From: Candidatus Stoquefichus sp.
GTDB lineage: Bacteria > Bacillota_I > Bacilli_A > Erysipelotrichales > Coprobacillaceae
Direction: 5' to 3'
DNA length: 57,574 nucleotides
NCBI GenBank assembly: GCA_021768625.1
Contig: JAETUM010000011.1
Coordinates: 1 to 57,574 of the forward strand
The position numbers and the translations under genes were made by a program. The notes under the pieces are model-generated. The model ran no database searches. It was given only the letters and a program-made list of their open reading frames with translations, and was not told the DNA's origin. Shown piece by piece: positions 6,273 to 33,883 of the stretch (position 1 is the stretch's first letter; each line of letters opens with the position of its first letter).

Positions 6273-6289
6273 CAATAAACACTTATTAA

Positions 6290-6457
6290 AGCAATAGCAC
6301 CCCACTTTATTATTATAAAGTGACAGTGATATAGATATTCTCTATACCCCCAGATAATAGTTACGTGCAAATAACTATCTCTTCGGCAATTGCTCCTCCT
6401 TCTTCTTAGTTGCACCTTTCATAAAAGAATTCTTAACTCTTGCACCTCTATCTTGCA
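6290..6457 (-). promoter_or_regulatory. Lysine riboswitch (L box)
   Basis: The minus strand carries the L-box landmarks in order: GATAGAGGTGC, GGTGCA, GGAGGAG, GCCGAAG, CTGGGGGT, CTGTCACTT and AAGTGGGGTGCTAT. The closing P1 helix pairs GCA..ATAG with CTAT.TGC. The 3' strand of P1 (CTATTGC) can instead pair with GCAATGG in the 5' arm of the terminator (bases 6243-6272), a seven-pair antiterminator. Lysine binding should stabilise P1, release the terminator and shut down the ACT-dapA-dapB-lysA operon. Confidence 0.93.
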
Positions 6458-6509
6458 TTTAATACTACCACAACGTGTACATGAAAGCAATATTTATTTT
6501 TATACTTTT

Positions 6510-13061: not shown

Positions 13062-13117
13062 ATTAATTACACCTCCAAAATACAAATTTTTTTATACACA
13101 ATAACATATGCCCCATT

Positions 13118-13146
13118 ATTATATTGTTTTTGTTCTTATAAGTCAA
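13118..13146 (-). promoter_or_regulatory. rpmH operon promoter
   Basis: Minus strand TTGACT (13146-13141) and TATAAT (13123-13118) with a 17-base spacer, near-consensus for sigma-A. It would start transcription about 50 bases before rpmH. Confidence 0.85.
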
Positions 13147-13245
13147 TGAAAATATAAAAATAATGTGGTTCATACGTATTTTTTTATCATTAAAAGTTCT
13201 ATTTTTATTTATTTTTCATATAATATAGTAACATATAATCACAAC

Positions 13246-13526
13246 TTATTCACAGTGTGAACAGAGTTATTCACAATTGTGCATAACTTTGTTTATTTCC
13301 TTATATTAACTTACTTTTTATGTGAATATGTTTATGAATAATTTGTGAATAGACTTTTTTTAAGAAAGTTATTCACATTTATTCACAGTGCATAACATTT
13401 TATTCACATTTTTATATTATTAAATTTGTGTATAATTAAAAAAATGTCGATATTTCTTCACTTTTAGATGTGCATAACTATGTGAATAAGTTGTGCATAA
13501 TTTTTTTCTTCTTCTATTTATTCACA
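13246..13526. other. oriC, upstream DnaA-box cluster
   Basis: Eleven nine-base DnaA boxes are visible. TTATTCACA lies on plus at 13246, 13267, 13369, 13379, 13400 and 13518 and on minus at 13481-13489. TTATGCACA lies on minus at 13278, 13469 and 13492, and TTATACACA on minus at 13427. One-mismatch forms start at 13321, 13344 and 13387. Box orientation flips from mostly plus to mostly minus near 13427. With the second cluster after dnaA this forms a bipartite origin of the Bacillus type. The cluster also overlaps the dnaA promoter region, so DnaA probably represses its own gene. Confidence 0.9.
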
Positions 13527-13534
13527 ATTTCCTC

Positions 13535-13540
13535 TATAAT
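13535..13540 (+). promoter_or_regulatory. Likely -10 box for dnaA
   Basis: TATAAT at 13535-13540 would start transcription at about 13547, just before the ribosome site GAAGGTG. A second TATAAT at 13431-13436 overlaps a DnaA box and could be an alternative. Confidence 0.4.
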
Positions 13541-13562
13541 AATAGTGAAAGAAGGTGAATAT

Positions 13563-14894
13563 ATGAATAATTTATCCTCTGATTGGGAAAAAACTTTAAA
13601 TATTTTTAAAACTCAATGTGATGATAAAGTCTTTTTTGATTCATATTTTTCTTCTTTAAAGGTAAGAGATGTTGTTGATGGAGATATTATAGTTACTATA
13701 GATACGCAGTGGAGTCTAGGTGAGGTTAATCCTTATTTAGATAAACTAGAAGAAATATATAATACATTAACAAGTGGCCATTATCATATTAATTTAGTTG
13801 TTGAAGAAGATTATATTCAATCTATTCAACAAAAAAATGAATTATTAAACTTTGAAGATAATTTAAATCCTGATTTTACATTTGAAAACTTTGTTGTGGG
13901 TGGAAGTAACAGAATTGCTCAAAACGCTTCTTTAGCAGTTGCTATGAAACCAGGTATATCCTATAGTCCTTTATTTATTCATAGTAATTCTGGGCTAGGA
14001 AAAACCCATTTATTAAATGCTATTGGTAATTATGCTAAGTCTAAAGATCCAACAATTAAAATACTTTTTACAACAAGTGAGAATTTTGTCAATGAATATA
14101 TTCAATCATTATCAAATCATACAATAGATGAGTTTAATTATAAGTTTAGACATATTGATATTCTCTTAATTGATGATATTCAATTTATGGCATCAAAAGA
14201 ATCTTCAAGTGAAATATTTTTTAATATCTTTAATAGTTTAATAAGCAATAAAAAACAAATTGTTATTACAAGTGATAAACCTCCTAGAGATTTAAAAGGA
14301 ATGGAAAGTCGCTTAGTAAGTCGCTTCTCTTCTGGTTTAACTGTAAGTATAGATACACCAGAATTTGAAACATCAAAAGCCATATTAAGGAAAAAAATAG
14401 AAATTGAAAATGTTGATTATCCAATTACAGAAGAAGTTCTTGATTTTATTGCTAGTCATTTTAATCAAGATGTAAGATCCTTAGAAGGTAGTTTAAATAG
14501 ATTAATGTTTTGGAAATTAGTTAATGGAAAAAATGTGAATTGTATTGATTTAAACTTTGCTTTAGATGCTTTTAGTGATACATACGAACAACCTCATAAG
14601 ACTACAGAATTAACTGTTGATGCTATCAAAAATTGTGTGGCAGACTATTATAATTTAACTGTTAACCAATTAAATTCAAAAACAAGAACATCAAATATTA
14701 TAGTAGCAAGACATATAGCTATGTATTTAGTCAGAGATTTAATTAAAGATATTTCTTTTATCCAAATTGGTCATGAATTTGGTGGTAGAGATCATTCAAC
14801 AGTTATGAAAGCTTGCGATAAAGTTGAAAAGAAATTGGATAAAGATTTGAATTATAGAAAAGCTATTCAAGACATAAAGAAAAAACTTTTATAA
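13563..14894 (+). CDS. dnaA: Chromosomal replication initiator DnaA
   Basis: DnaA binds the boxes on both sides of its gene, melts the origin and loads the helicase. The 443-aa protein shows domain I (about 1-80), the AAA+ domain with HSNSGLGKTHLLNAIGN and ILLIDDIQFMA, and domain IV with the DNA-binding signature GGRDHSTVMKACDKV. The start at 13563 (MNNLSSDWEK) follows GAAGGTGAATAT and matches the family; the open frame extends to 13470 but encodes hydrophobic residues over DnaA boxes. It is the first rightward gene, with dnaN after a second box cluster. Confidence 0.97.
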   Translation: MNNLSSDWEKTLNIFKTQCDDKVFFDSYFSSLKVRDVVDGDIIVTIDTQWSLGEVNPYLDKLEEIYNTLTSGHYHINLVVEEDYIQSIQQKNELLNFEDNLNPDFTFENFVVGGSNRIAQNASLAVAMKPGISYSPLFIHSNSGLGKTHLLNAIGNYAKSKDPTIKILFTTSENFVNEYIQSLSNHTIDEFNYKFRHIDILLIDDIQFMASKESSSEIFFNIFNSLISNKKQIVITSDKPPRDLKGMESRLVSRFSSGLTVSIDTPEFETSKAILRKKIEIENVDYPITEEVLDFIASHFNQDVRSLEGSLNRLMFWKLVNGKNVNCIDLNFALDAFSDTYEQPHKTTELTVDAIKNCVADYYNLTVNQLNSKTRTSNIIVARHIAMYLVRDLIKDISFIQIGHEFGGRDHSTVMKACDKVEKKLDKDLNYRKAIQDIKKKLL

Positions 14895-14897
14895 AAG

Positions 14898-15030
14898 TTA
14901 TTCACATTTATTCACAACTTATTCACTATGTTTAAATCAAAATATATTGATTTATTCAATAAATTAATAAGTTATTCACATTATTCACAATATTATAATT
15001 AATATATTATTTAAATAATAATAAATAAAA
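14898..15030. other. oriC, downstream DnaA boxes and AT-rich unwinding region
   Basis: Between dnaA and dnaN, TTATTCACA boxes start at 14898, 14908, 14972 and 14981, with a near-match (TTATTCACT) at 14919. They are followed by a stretch of almost pure A/T (about 14990-15029) that is the likely unwinding element. In Bacillus the corresponding dnaA-dnaN gap is where melting happens. Confidence 0.85.
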
Positions 15031-15041
15031 GGAGAAAAAAG

Positions 15042-16145
15042 ATGAATTTTAAAATAAAAAGAACTGTATTATTAAATGCACTTTCTAAAGTTTCTAAAGC
15101 TGTTTCTTTAAAAAGTCCATTACCTGTTTTAACTGGTATTAAATTTGATTTACAAGAAGATCAATTAATTTTAACTGGAAGTGATAGTGATATTACTATT
15201 CAAACAAGTATTAAAGATGATATTGAAATTATAGAAAAAGGAGCTGTCGTGTTATCTTCACGTTATATCTTAGAAATTATCAAAAAAATAGATTCTGAAA
15301 TTGTTCATATTTATATTGTTGATGGTACACTTACTAGAATTGAAGGTTCTGGTTCTAAATTTGATTTAAATGGAACATCATATATTGATTATCCTAGAAT
15401 TGATTTAAATAAATCTGGTGTTCATTTAGAAATGAAATCAATAGATTTAAAACATGCTATAGAACAAACTTCTTTTGCTACAAGTGAAAAAGAAACAAGA
15501 CCTGTTTTAACTGGAGTTAATTTTAAAGCTAAGAATCGCATGTTAGAATGTATAGCTACTGATAGTTATCGTTTAGCAAAACGTATTCTTCCTATTGAAT
15601 CAGATGTTACATTTAATATTATTATTCCTAAAAAAAGTTTAATAGAAATTAGTCGTATTATAGAAAAAGATGAAATTATAGATTTATATGTATCAGATCG
15701 TAAAGTTTTATTTGTATTAGATGTAGCTATTATTCAAACAAGATTAATTGATGGATCTTATCCTGATACAAGTCGCCTTATTCCTAGTGAATTTGATTAC
15801 TCTATGTCTGTTGATAGTATTAGTTTATTAAATTCTATAGATAGAGCTTCTTTACTTTCTAATGAGCAATCTAATATTATTAAATTAACAATGGATGAAG
15901 ATAATGTTATTCTTTCTTCATTTTCACAAGAAATTGGATCAGTTGAAGAAAATTTATCTAAAGCTTTTTATAAAGGTCAACCATTACATATTTCATTTAG
16001 TGCAAAATATTTAAATGATGCTATTAAAAGCATAAATAGTGAGAAAGTAAGAGTTTTATTTACTGGCGAAATGAGGCCATTTATTATTAAAGATTTAGAA
16101 AGAGAAGATATTATTCAATTAGTATTACCAGTAAGAACATATTAA
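15042..16145 (+). CDS. dnaN: DNA polymerase III beta sliding clamp
   Basis: DnaN is the ring that tethers the replicative polymerase to DNA. The 367-aa protein has the three repeated clamp domains; recognisable stretches are LPVLTGIKFDL, SRYILEIIKKI, RPVLTGVNFKA, ATDSYRLAKR, DGSYPDTSRLIP and the C-terminal partner-binding end with RPFIIKD and IQLVLPVRTY. RBS AAAGGAGAAAAAAG. It follows dnaA and the second half of oriC, and a terminator overlaps its stop codon, so it is not continuous with the following GGDEF gene. Confidence 0.97.
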   Translation: MNFKIKRTVLLNALSKVSKAVSLKSPLPVLTGIKFDLQEDQLILTGSDSDITIQTSIKDDIEIIEKGAVVLSSRYILEIIKKIDSEIVHIYIVDGTLTRIEGSGSKFDLNGTSYIDYPRIDLNKSGVHLEMKSIDLKHAIEQTSFATSEKETRPVLTGVNFKAKNRMLECIATDSYRLAKRILPIESDVTFNIIIPKKSLIEISRIIEKDEIIDLYVSDRKVLFVLDVAIIQTRLIDGSYPDTSRLIPSEFDYSMSVDSISLLNSIDRASLLSNEQSNIIKLTMDEDNVILSSFSQEIGSVEENLSKAFYKGQPLHISFSAKYLNDAIKSINSEKVRVLFTGEMRPFIIKDLEREDIIQLVLPVRTY

Positions 16146-16172
16146 AAGTATAATTAAGTTTATACTTTTTAT
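16144..16172 (+). terminator. Terminator after dnaN
   Basis: Arms AAAAGTATAA and TTATACTTTT with a T run start at the dnaN stop codon. Confidence 0.8.
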
Positions 16173-16191
16173 TTAGTTATAAAATAAATTG

Positions 16192-16200
16192 TGATATAAT
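16192..16200 (+). promoter_or_regulatory. Extended -10 promoter of the GGDEF gene leader
   Basis: TGATATAAT (TGnTATAAT) ends about 8 bases before the riboswitch begins. The candidate -35 (TTTAGT, 16172-16177) is weak. Confidence 0.55.
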
Positions 16201-16207
16201 AAAATAA

Positions 16208-16284
16208 ACTAAATAGGCAAAATTATTGAAAGATAATGACGCAAAGCTATAGGGCCTAATATATATGGCAGCCAGTTGCATTTA
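16208..16284 (+). promoter_or_regulatory. Cyclic-di-GMP-I (GEMM-I) riboswitch
   Basis: The leader contains the GEMM-I landmarks in order: GGCAAA (16216), GAAA tetraloop arm, GACGCAAAGC (about 16238), GGGCCT (16252), and GGCAGCCAGTTGCA (16267-16280) as the second paired strand. It is followed at once by a terminator hairpin and then a diguanylate cyclase gene, so the enzyme's product should control its own synthesis. Confidence 0.9.
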
Positions 16285-16286
16285 AT

Positions 16287-16313
16287 AGATAGGGCTGTTA
16301 CCTATCTTTTTTT
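16287..16313 (+). terminator. Expression-platform terminator of the c-di-GMP riboswitch
   Basis: AGATAGG and CCTATCT (loop GCTGTTA) followed by seven T residues, three bases after the aptamer. Whether c-di-GMP turns transcription on or off cannot be decided by eye. Confidence 0.85.
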
Positions 16314-16330
16314 ATGAAAGGAGAATTATA

Positions 16331-18568
16331 ATGAAGGGTAGGAAATTATATATAAAAGTTATATTTATCATTTTCTTATTTATTTTTTTAGGATTTTCTT
16401 TTCAAAACTTTACTCAAAGAAATGCTCAATTTAATGATGAGAGAATTATGGATCATTTAGAAGATATTTGTAAACAAACTTCTAATATGTATCATAAAAA
16501 ATTTGATGATGCAAAATCATTAATTATGAGTACTTGTTCATTAATAAGTAATCATTATTATAGTCATGAAGATATAGGAAAAATTTTAAATAATTTAGAA
16601 AAAGATAATAGTTTATTTACAAGAATATGGTATTTAGATCAAGATGGAAAATCTTATAATTATTATAAAAATGAAGTTTTAAAAACAAATGGAAATTATG
16701 TTGATGAAATCTTTAAAGGCAATACTGGAATATCAGATGTTTTTTCTTCTGCATATAATCAAAAAGACATTATTGCTGTTTATTCACCTGTTTATCAAAA
16801 TAAAAAGGTTGTTGGAGGAATTGTAGGTATTATTGAAATTAATGATGAAGATAATAGTCTTCTTTATGATGATTTTTTTGATAATAGTGCTTATGTATTT
16901 GCTACAACAAAAGATGGGCAGATTATCACAAAAGTAAGAAATGATAATACTTTGTATTTAGGTGCTAATTATTTTTATTTTTTAAAAAATGATGTTACTT
17001 TTAATGAGAAATCTTTTCAGTCTATTATAAAGAATATGAATAATAATCAATCTGGTTATTTTAAATATAGTTTAAAAAATAATGGAAGAATATGTTTTTA
17101 TACACCAGTTTCTATTAATAATTGGTATGTATTTACAATCATATCTGAAGATTTTGTAATTAATCAGACAAAACAAATGAATGAGATTACTTTCCAATTC
17201 ACTGTTCCTTTAGTTATTGTTTTATTTTGTATATTTTTAATTATTATTCATTATTTTATAAAAACAAATAAACAAATAGAAAAAATAAATAATCAATTAG
17301 TTGTTAATCATAAAAAAATAGAATCTATTTTAAAATTAACAAGCGATAGAATTTTTGAATATCATGTAAATGAAGATAGTCTTATTTTAGATGCTTGGGA
17401 TAATCAACCTAAAGTTATATTTAATAATTTTTTGAAGTATTTATCTAATTATGAATTTGTTGTGAGTGAACATGAAAAAATGTTTAAAGAAAAATTTAAT
17501 CAATTAATAAATGGAGAAAAAGAAGTCTCTTTTGATGTTAAATTACCTTATATTAGTAAAGATTTAAAAACATGGTTTCATATTTCTATGATACGAATAT
17601 CAAATCATACTTTTATTGGAACTTTTCAAAATAGTACAAAAAAAATGAATGAATATAATCATTTGTTAGAAAATCAAATGTTTAAGAATTCTATATATGC
17701 TCATGCAACAAGTATGTTTGCAGTTCATTTAAAAAGTAAAAAAGTTATAATTTCCCAAAGTGAAGGAAAATATAAAAATTATGTTGATTATGATTATGAA
17801 AATCAATTTATTCATCATTTTTTAGAATATGTTTATGAAGATGATAAAAAATTAGTTCAAGACTTTTTCTCTTATGATCATATCCAAAAATTATTTCATC
17901 AATCTATTCAAAATAATAAAATAGATTTTAGATATTTCAATTCTAAAACAGAAAAATATGAATGGAGAAGATGTAATGTACAGTTTGAAAGACAGAGTAG
18001 TAATAATGATCTTATCATGATAGCTTATTCTAATAATATTGATGATGAAAAGAAAATACAATTAGAAAATGAATATAAAGCACAAAAAGATGGTTTAACT
18101 GGTTTATTAAATAGGGATACTTTTAATCAAAAGGTTAATGATTATCTGTCTCATAAACGTGCAAGTTATCAATATAGTGCTTATATGATTTTAGATTTAG
18201 ATAATTTTAAATATGTTAATGATACTTTAGGTCATGATAGAGGAGATGCTGTTTTAAAAGAAGTTGCACAAACACTTAAATATGTTTTTAATCATAAGAG
18301 TTATATAGGAAGATTTGGTGGAGATGAATTTTTGATTTTTATGTATGATCAAGTATCTTATACAGAAATTGAAAAGAAAGCTAATCAAATTTTAAAAAAT
18401 ATTCATGATAATAATTTAGAAAATATCTCTTGTTCTATTGGTATTTGTTTTGTTAGAAATGAAAAAGATTATGAAGAATTGTTTAAAAAGAGTGATAAAG
18501 CATTGTATATGTGTAAAAATTCAGGAAAAAATAGTTTTAAAATTTATTATAATTTGGAAAAGGAATAA
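16331..18568 (+). CDS. Membrane-bound diguanylate cyclase with extracellular sensor
   Basis: The 745-aa protein should make cyclic-di-GMP from GTP. Order: membrane helix 1 (residues about 8-26), an extracellular Cache-like sensor (about 30-285), membrane helix 2 (about 290-311), a PAS-like cytosolic stretch (about 330-575) and a C-terminal GGDEF domain with intact GGDEF at 663-667 in IGRFGGDEFLIF. The RxxD product-inhibition site normally five residues before it is absent (NHKS there), so feedback may instead act through the riboswitch in the leader. No EAL domain. RBS AAAGGAG. It is an insertion between dnaN and yaaA-recF, which are usually adjacent. Confidence 0.9.
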   Translation: MKGRKLYIKVIFIIFLFIFLGFSFQNFTQRNAQFNDERIMDHLEDICKQTSNMYHKKFDDAKSLIMSTCSLISNHYYSHEDIGKILNNLEKDNSLFTRIWYLDQDGKSYNYYKNEVLKTNGNYVDEIFKGNTGISDVFSSAYNQKDIIAVYSPVYQNKKVVGGIVGIIEINDEDNSLLYDDFFDNSAYVFATTKDGQIITKVRNDNTLYLGANYFYFLKNDVTFNEKSFQSIIKNMNNNQSGYFKYSLKNNGRICFYTPVSINNWYVFTIISEDFVINQTKQMNEITFQFTVPLVIVLFCIFLIIIHYFIKTNKQIEKINNQLVVNHKKIESILKLTSDRIFEYHVNEDSLILDAWDNQPKVIFNNFLKYLSNYEFVVSEHEKMFKEKFNQLINGEKEVSFDVKLPYISKDLKTWFHISMIRISNHTFIGTFQNSTKKMNEYNHLLENQMFKNSIYAHATSMFAVHLKSKKVIISQSEGKYKNYVDYDYENQFIHHFLEYVYEDDKKLVQDFFSYDHIQKLFHQSIQNNKIDFRYFNSKTEKYEWRRCNVQFERQSSNNDLIMIAYSNNIDDEKKIQLENEYKAQKDGLTGLLNRDTFNQKVNDYLSHKRASYQYSAYMILDLDNFKYVNDTLGHDRGDAVLKEVAQTLKYVFNHKSYIGRFGGDEFLIFMYDQVSYTEIEKKANQILKNIHDNNLENISCSIGICFVRNEKDYEELFKKSDKALYMCKNSGKNSFKIYYNLEKE

Positions 18569-18597
18569 TTCATTGATTATTGAATTATTCTTTTTTT
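18563..18597 (+). terminator. Terminator after the GGDEF gene
   Basis: GAATAATTCA and TGAATTATTC (18563-18572 and 18581-18590) with a T run, overlapping the stop codon. Confidence 0.85.
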
Positions 18598-18703
18598 CTT
18601 TCAAATTTCTATTTTAAGACACTTTCTTACAAAAATGATATTTATATCTTTTTTAATTAATTGTTAATATAAGGCTTTAAAACTATCATTTTTTTATATT
18701 TTA

Positions 18704-18712
18704 TGTTATAAT
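18704..18712 (+). promoter_or_regulatory. Extended -10 promoter of yaaA-recF-gyrBA
   Basis: TGTTATAAT within ATGTTATAAT, with no good -35. It drives the operon beginning at 18746. Confidence 0.6.
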
Positions 18713-18745
18713 AATGAGTGTTTTTATGAAAGAGAGTGACTTTTG

Positions 18746-18950
18746 ATGAAAGAAATTAATATTGATACTGATTATATTACTTTAGGTAAATTTCTTAAAT
18801 ATGTAAATGCAGTTGACTCTGGAGCCATTGCTAAGATGGTTATCTTAGATGGTCATGTTTTGGTTAATGATGAAGTAGAAATAAGAAGAGGAAAGAAATT
18901 AAGAAATGGAGACAGAATTTCTTTTGATGGAATAACTTATATTATTAAAA

Positions 18951-18961
<11 letters not shown>
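18746..18961 (+). CDS. yaaA: S4-domain RNA-binding protein YaaA (RlbA)
   Basis: This 71-aa protein is a single S4 domain (ITLGKFLKYVNAVDSGAIAKMVILDGHVLVNDEVEIRRGKKL, read in two parts), the usual small protein between dnaN and recF in Firmicutes, probably linked to ribosome assembly. A TTG at 18743 directly precedes the ATG at 18746; the ATG has the better spacing from GAGAG. Its end overlaps the recF start by 11 bases, so the two are coupled. Here it is separated from dnaN by the inserted GGDEF gene. Confidence 0.9.
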
Positions 18962-21969
<3,008 letters not shown>

Positions 21970-27847: not shown

Positions 27848-28045
27848 GTCTAGTTGATATATTGGATAAGTAAATAATAAGTTATTGTAGAGATCTTGTG
27901 GTTGGTGAAAACAAGAATAATGAATTATTGAAATCTACCAATATGATATGTCAATTCGGTTGATCCGTTATCTCATATAAAGATATCATATGATATGAAA
28001 TAGGGTGGCACCACGATATTATCGTCCCTTGTAATGGTGTTTTTA
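27848..28045 (+). promoter_or_regulatory. Serine T-box leader
   Basis: The leader contains the T-box AGGGTGGCACCACG (28002-28015), which can pair with an uncharged tRNA end. The stem I region has a likely specifier TCT (Ser) at 27934-27936 in GAAATCTACC. The competing terminator uses CACCA with TGGTG and a T run (28009-28045). Uncharged tRNA-Ser should allow read-through into serS. Confidence 0.9.
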
Positions 28046-33791: not shown

Positions 33792-33798
33792 ATTCATT

Positions 33799-33883
33799 GC
33801 CATTACAATAGACGGCTTCGAACCATGTCAGGACCGGAAGGTAGCAGCATTAAGAATGTCCGCTTATGTGTAGTGGCTTTTTT
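33799..33883 (+). ncRNA. ffs: Signal recognition particle RNA (small bacterial type)
   Basis: The RNA contains the invariant SRP hairpin GTCAGGACCGGAAGGTAGCA (33828-33847) and continues CATTAAG. The ends pair (GCCATTACA with TGTAGTGGC, 33799-33807 and 33869-33877), and six T residues follow. It is about 80 nt, the short form without an Alu domain, even though Bacillus has the long form. It binds Ffh to target membrane proteins. It lies just before tadA, as in many Firmicutes where ffs, tadA and dnaX cluster. Confidence 0.95.

Follow-up and report, generated by a model that had tools for sequence, protein, structure and literature searches.

The described system closest to the leader analyzed here is Cd1 (Cdi-1-3), which precedes the flagellar operon of Clostridioides difficile and in which a class I aptamer coexists with an intrinsic terminator, the antiterminator takes the 3' strand of the aptamer, and the logic is OFF (PMC9262584, PMC6200980). 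In Cd1 the aptamer and terminator folds can form together, whereas in the pilM ON switch they are mutually exclusive (PMC9262584), and the class I switches of C. difficile, whose set covers flagella, adhesin, protease, and hypothetical proteins, act as OFF switches (PMC6200980). Ever since their discovery, GEMM RNAs have been noted ahead of genes for DGCs and PDEs (Weinberg, Sudarsan; reviewed in PMC12564702), and riboswitch control of c-di-GMP metabolic genes has been called rare (PMC6366702). As for the protein, YfiN is a known I-site-free sensor-GGDEF, with a membrane sensor and an active-type GGDEF domain lacking RxxD (PMC10127611). The locus reported here has the leader architecture of Cd1, but it precedes a cyclase gene instead of flagellar genes, and its OFF action is a prediction. 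Like the cases of Weinberg and Sudarsan (cited in PMC12564702), it places a c-di-GMP aptamer directly before a c-di-GMP turnover gene, but it is tied to one oriC-side locus, is conserved over three genera, and has a predicted output sign. Its cyclase resembles YfiN, from which it differs in that its expression has its own product-sensing leader.

In the window, that is, the whole stretch of 57,574 nucleotides analyzed here, the genes follow the canonical order of the origin region (rnpA-dnaA-dnaN-yaaA-recF-gyrB-gyrA), plus one extra unit between dnaN and yaaA (table 1). The preliminary description had located in this slot a GEMM-I aptamer and a terminator directly ahead of a sensor-GGDEF gene without RxxD inhibition site, and all of these elements were recovered, as was the insertion itself. 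The covariance search that it had proposed as a check scored the aptamer at 66.7 bits (window-wide E 6e-11), above the gathering score of 35; the aptamer start given earlier, 16208, proved 2 nt late. By sequence inspection, AT-rich hairpins followed by T-runs occur after dnaN and after the cyclase gene, which suggests that the unit has a transcript of its own, the second hairpin putatively isolating the gene from yaaA-recF. The hairpin 3' of dnaN is absent from the list of our terminator search, which demands at least three G-C pairs. The proximity of the unit to the origin is real: the GC skew switches sign near 13-14 kb of the window, one-mismatch DnaA-box-like sites are clustered within 13092-14989 on both sides of dnaA, and the unit lies ~1.2-5.5 kb from these clusters. 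In the dnaA ORF, there are DnaA boxes overlapping the first in-frame GTG (window 13470-13560), and the true dnaA start is probably the downstream ATG (MNNLSSDWEKTL). The window also holds a lysine riboswitch (6287-6458, minus strand), a T-box leader (27854-28032, plus strand), and a small SRP RNA (33796-33883, plus strand), all of them ordinary.

Table 1. Features of the dnaN-recF region, in positions of the window.
Feature	Position	Strand	Details
dnaN	15042-16145
Putative dnaN terminator	16145..16170	+	AT-rich hairpin and T-run directly 3' of the dnaN stop; AAAGTATAA...TTATACTTT TT
Putative promoter of the unit	16172..16200	+	TTTAGT, 17 nt, TATAAT; extended -10 TGA
c-di-GMP-I (GEMM-I) aptamer	16206..16283	+	Rfam RF01051
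GGCAGCC (A strand of predicted antiterminator)	16267..16273	+	3' strand of second aptamer hairpin
Intrinsic terminator	16287..16314	+	stem 16287-16293 / 16301-16307, then T-run
GGCTGTT (T strand)	16293..16299	+	complement of A strand; A:T pairing would block the terminator
Ribosome-binding site AAAGGAG	16317..16323	+	7 nt upstream of ATG
Membrane sensor diguanylate cyclase	16331..18568	+	intact ORF, 745 aa
GGDEF domain	18083..18532	+	PF00990, Pfam E 3.7e-36
Putative terminator at cyclase gene end	18563..18597	+	AT-rich hairpin and T7; GAATAATTCA...TGAATTATTC TTTTTTT
yaaA	18743-18961		S4-domain
recF	18951-20045		followed by gyrB, gyrA

The putative promoter was recognized from sequence and alignment; TGATATAAT is common to all four riboswitch-bearing orthologs, which share the -10 block, and transcription is predicted to start near 16207. 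In the Rfam alignment, the first aptamer hairpin bears a GNRA-type tetraloop (GAAA). The selectivity base is a G (16216, model position 11, equivalent to G20 of Vc2 and G11 of Cd1), and since a G rather than an A at the Vc2 G20 position favors c-di-GMP over c-GAMP (PMC9262584, PMC10333796), the ligand is most likely c-di-GMP. The terminator (AGATAGG-GCTGTTA-CCTATCT TTTTTTT) is the sole terminator-like site found in 15900-19100, where 0.2 would be expected, and its 7-bp stem contains only 3 G-C pairs.

The protein encoded downstream is laid out as an N-terminal membrane segment, an outside sensor, a second membrane segment, a presumptive PAS-like region, and a C-terminal GGDEF domain. Its catalytic motif RFGGDEF is intact, GGDEF and its flanking residues are invariant across five orthologs, and the protein is predicted to make c-di-GMP. 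An extracytoplasmic location is predicted for the sensor, and there is weak evidence that this domain is Cache-like: Pfam and PDB profiles gave it no name, with a 6iop chemoreceptor chain at 3e-5 (profile positions 39-206) and sCache_2 at 0.007 in one ortholog only. Single-sequence structure prediction of the cyclase had a mean pLDDT of 38 and was set aside. At the position of the RxxD I-site, five residues before GGDEF, the window cyclase reads NHKS; the site is absent in all five orthologs, in 22 of the 33 distinct GGDEF motifs sampled from the family (11 have it), and in every riboswitch-led DGC found, though these come from few independent groups only. The preliminary description had proposed that the product feeds back on transcription rather than on enzyme activity. 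The first half of this proposal stands, in that the leader architecture predicts transcriptional product feedback, most likely repression; the missing I-site, on the other hand, is no proof of a swap from allosteric to transcriptional control, and we rejected its loss as a sign of one. With 22 family motifs lacking the site, as well as the ortholog of genome G007, which has no riboswitch either, its absence is ordinary in this family, and either predates the riboswitch or arose independently of it. All that this absence does is make allosteric feedback at that site unlikely, which leaves a role for transcriptional feedback.

Within a family sample of 43 genomes from 20 genera, full-length orthologs of the cyclase were found in G032 (51% identity), G033 (49%), G028 (48%), and G007 (38%), and all five copies, including that of the window, lie directly 3' of dnaN, which places the gene in the same slot in four genera. 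The order promoter-aptamer-terminator-DGC is found in this slot in G028, G032, and G033, that is, in three other species from two other genera, with aptamers scoring 63.2, 52.9, and 56.7 bits, respectively, all over the Rfam cut-off. These orthologs keep the terminator stem, in which G028 has a U-A pair replaced on both sides by C-G, and the aptamer core is nearly unchanged in the four species though the gene is only ~50% identical, the first hairpin showing two-sided base-pair changes. For the cyclase of G007, from the fourth genus, a search for a cryptic aptamer found none at E up to 5, and there is hardly room for one. A dN of 0.16 and a dS of 0.83 between the G032 and G033 cyclases indicate a gene that is fast-evolving but under purifying selection. 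The preliminary description had named conservation in relatives as a check, and a decayed or strain-only insertion as what would speak against it; with an intact ORF, orthologs in the slot, and this dN/dS contrast, the insertion is neither. In G028, G032, and G033 the cyclase is followed by a response regulator, a histidine kinase, and an ABC transporter; in the sister genus g2, four genomes keep this kind of regulator-kinase-transporter module without the cyclase, and one has an empty slot. In the DnaN tree, the window genome (G000) branches beside the g16/g19/g2 group and G007 falls outside, so the common ancestor of g1, g2, g16, and g19 probably had the riboswitch unit, with a later loss in g2. 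An order-wide profile search (295 genomes) added three full-length homologues, which do not have dnaN, yaaA, or recF among their neighbors and whose loci gave no Rfam match.

We consider it likely, if well short of certain, that this single-gene unit makes c-di-GMP on an outside signal and limits its own expression via its product. At low c-di-GMP, the nascent leader would pair GGCAGCC with GGCTGTT, in the 5' arm and loop of the terminator, so that the terminator could not form and the synthase would be made; at high c-di-GMP, ligand binding would lock GGCAGCC in the aptamer, let the terminator form, and stop transcription. Computation shows the aptamer, the terminator, the gene, the conservation, the aptamer-terminator compatibility, and the competing antiterminator complementarity; that the leader binds its ligand, which way it acts in the cell, that the enzyme is active, and what the sensor takes as input are inferred. 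In the first fold of the leader, GGCAGCC was paired with the 5' arm and loop of the terminator. In none of the four slot leaders does the terminator overlap the aptamer, and both can form together: enforcing aptamer P3 and the terminator jointly gave -18.9 in the window, equal to the MFE, and cost 0.9-3.0 kcal/mol in the orthologs, so the two are not mutually exclusive. As long as the 3' arm of the terminator is not yet made, three of the four leaders (window, G032, G033), when unbound, favor other folds by 3.4-3.8 kcal/mol relative to the aptamer. The A:T complementarity exceeds that of shuffled arms, with p-values of ~0.02 in the window, 0.002-0.02 in G032, 0.004-0.008 in G033, and 0.03-0.06 in G028, which are modest and depend on the two ways of bounding the terminator arm that the ranges reflect; the four leaders being homologous, and G032 and G033 close relatives, they are not independent tests. 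In G028 it is another part of the aptamer strand (GUUGCAUC) that goes into the antiterminator, and the p-value of the stricter test is above 0.05. The Cd1-type OFF arrangement, with a compatible terminator and an antiterminator made of the aptamer 3' strand and the terminator 5' arm, was found in the window, G032, and G033, G028 being borderline, and such compatible folds and complementarity predict that the product represses its synthase. The reverse sign, by which c-di-GMP would promote read-through and put the synthase under positive, switch-like feedback, has precedents in the same family, where our test gives ON-type calls for four other leaders (L007, L135, L141, L144) whose aptamer strand is the terminator 5' arm, and can thus return the opposite answer; one of these (L007), with a terminator made from the aptamer's own 3' strand, even belongs to the window genome. 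At the dnaN slot, it seems improbable to us, given that all four DGC leaders have their terminator outside the aptamer and able to coexist with it, and that the aptamer strand is complementary to the 5' arm of the terminator and not to its 3' arm (A:H p 0.17-0.23).

A slightly smaller chance goes to the leader being a relic or a constitutive attenuator, in which the terminator would act at a fixed level and the aptamer would no longer switch; the folding energy of the whole leader, not better than that of shuffles (z 0.42), would agree with this, but the near-constancy of the aptamer core across four species and the paired changes in its first hairpin argue against it. We give very little credit to the idea that the insertion was chosen for its origin proximity, early duplication and high dosage then coupling c-di-GMP synthesis to the replication cycle. 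Although the distance to the DnaA-box clusters and the retention of the gene in four genera would suit it, this replication-timing idea amounts to location plus inference, and the slot is permissive: among the 40 family genomes with a dnaN match, yaaA adjoins dnaN in 21, the cyclase does in 5, and other genes do in 13, with 1 unreadable. In 18 of the 39 readable genomes, some gene thus separates dnaN from yaaA or is the next one after dnaN, and the locus is less rigid in this family than the preliminary description had it, which counted the order among the most conserved in Firmicutes. The conserved position of the cyclase is then compatible with vertical inheritance in a permissive slot and is not in itself direct evidence that the gene is tied to replication timing; repression by its product would, moreover, buffer the gene against dosage effects. 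As to its contents, the slot in the family (L169 to L207) takes many different genes, among them regulator-kinase-ABC transporter modules.

The window genome encodes five GGDEF proteins, apart from one short fragment match; its single EAL domain is fused to one of the five, and it has one HD-GYP-type domain; PilZ and MshEN models, which do match in control genomes, had no match in it. Of its eight GEMM-I aptamers, one is truncated at the end of a contig, and the six readable ones outside the dnaN slot precede genes of secreted or surface type (CAP-domain, papain/lectin/Ig-like, and repeat proteins). A c-di-GMP-II search gave no match in this genome and none in any control. One large surface protein with repeats has two GEMM-I aptamers ahead of its gene, ~200 nt from each other (G000:C64:10574-10924; L152 4574-4925), the second seemingly with its own promoter and being the clearest ON-type leader of the genome, with a ~17 bp hairpin from the aptamer 3' strand. 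Before a CAP-domain secreted protein (L150 997-1072), c-di-GMP-I-GGC (RF03167) beats RF01051 when both models compete, so for some of the surface-protein switches the choice of family is borderline.

A collection of GEMM-I aptamers across the family, made with a filter by which weak matches are lost, numbers 30, of which 8 have a GGDEF gene directly downstream: four of these belong to the dnaN slot, three lead genes that combine a solute-binding-like N-terminus with a GGDEF domain, and one leads a membrane GGDEF gene. The trio (L158 2820-5396, L159 1949-4583, and L160 1530-4143, in G028, G032, and G033) is predicted to form a second cyclase group with product feedback, two of its leaders having strong OFF-type complementarity (p 0.004 and 0.0005). 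At a ninth aptamer (L224 1-3455, G039:C248), a GEMM-I leader is followed by a PilZ-domain glycosyltransferase and then a PAS-GGDEF gene, possibly a c-di-GMP receptor and a synthase in one operon under a c-di-GMP switch. A rule by which adhesins would be ON and synthases OFF was rejected as not clean, the DGC leaders giving 5 OFF, 0 ON, and 3 uncalled, and the others 2 OFF, 4 ON, and 11 uncalled. Two further aptamers (L126 and L124, in G028 and G007) precede what look by eye like RNA methyltransferase genes, an unexpected target, with no clear terminator adjoining the aptamer.

From these inventories, c-di-GMP sensing in the window genome may be mostly by RNA. A wider reading, which we put forward tentatively and hold to be rather doubtful, is that of an RNA-centred circuit: with its cyclases few in number, PilZ and MshEN receptors undetected, and GEMM-I leaders numbering eight, the organism would have riboswitches as its main sensors, one of them closing a negative loop on a synthase without allosteric brake, and the level of the messenger would be set by attenuation. 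The parts of the unit are known, and their conserved arrangement for predicted product feedback in at least four related species is uncommon; what the case adds lies in this conservation, in the predicted sign, and in a genome where RNA sensors appear to predominate. As a small, I-site-free, one-gene unit, it would allow the effect of transcriptional feedback on the dynamics of a second messenger to be measured directly.
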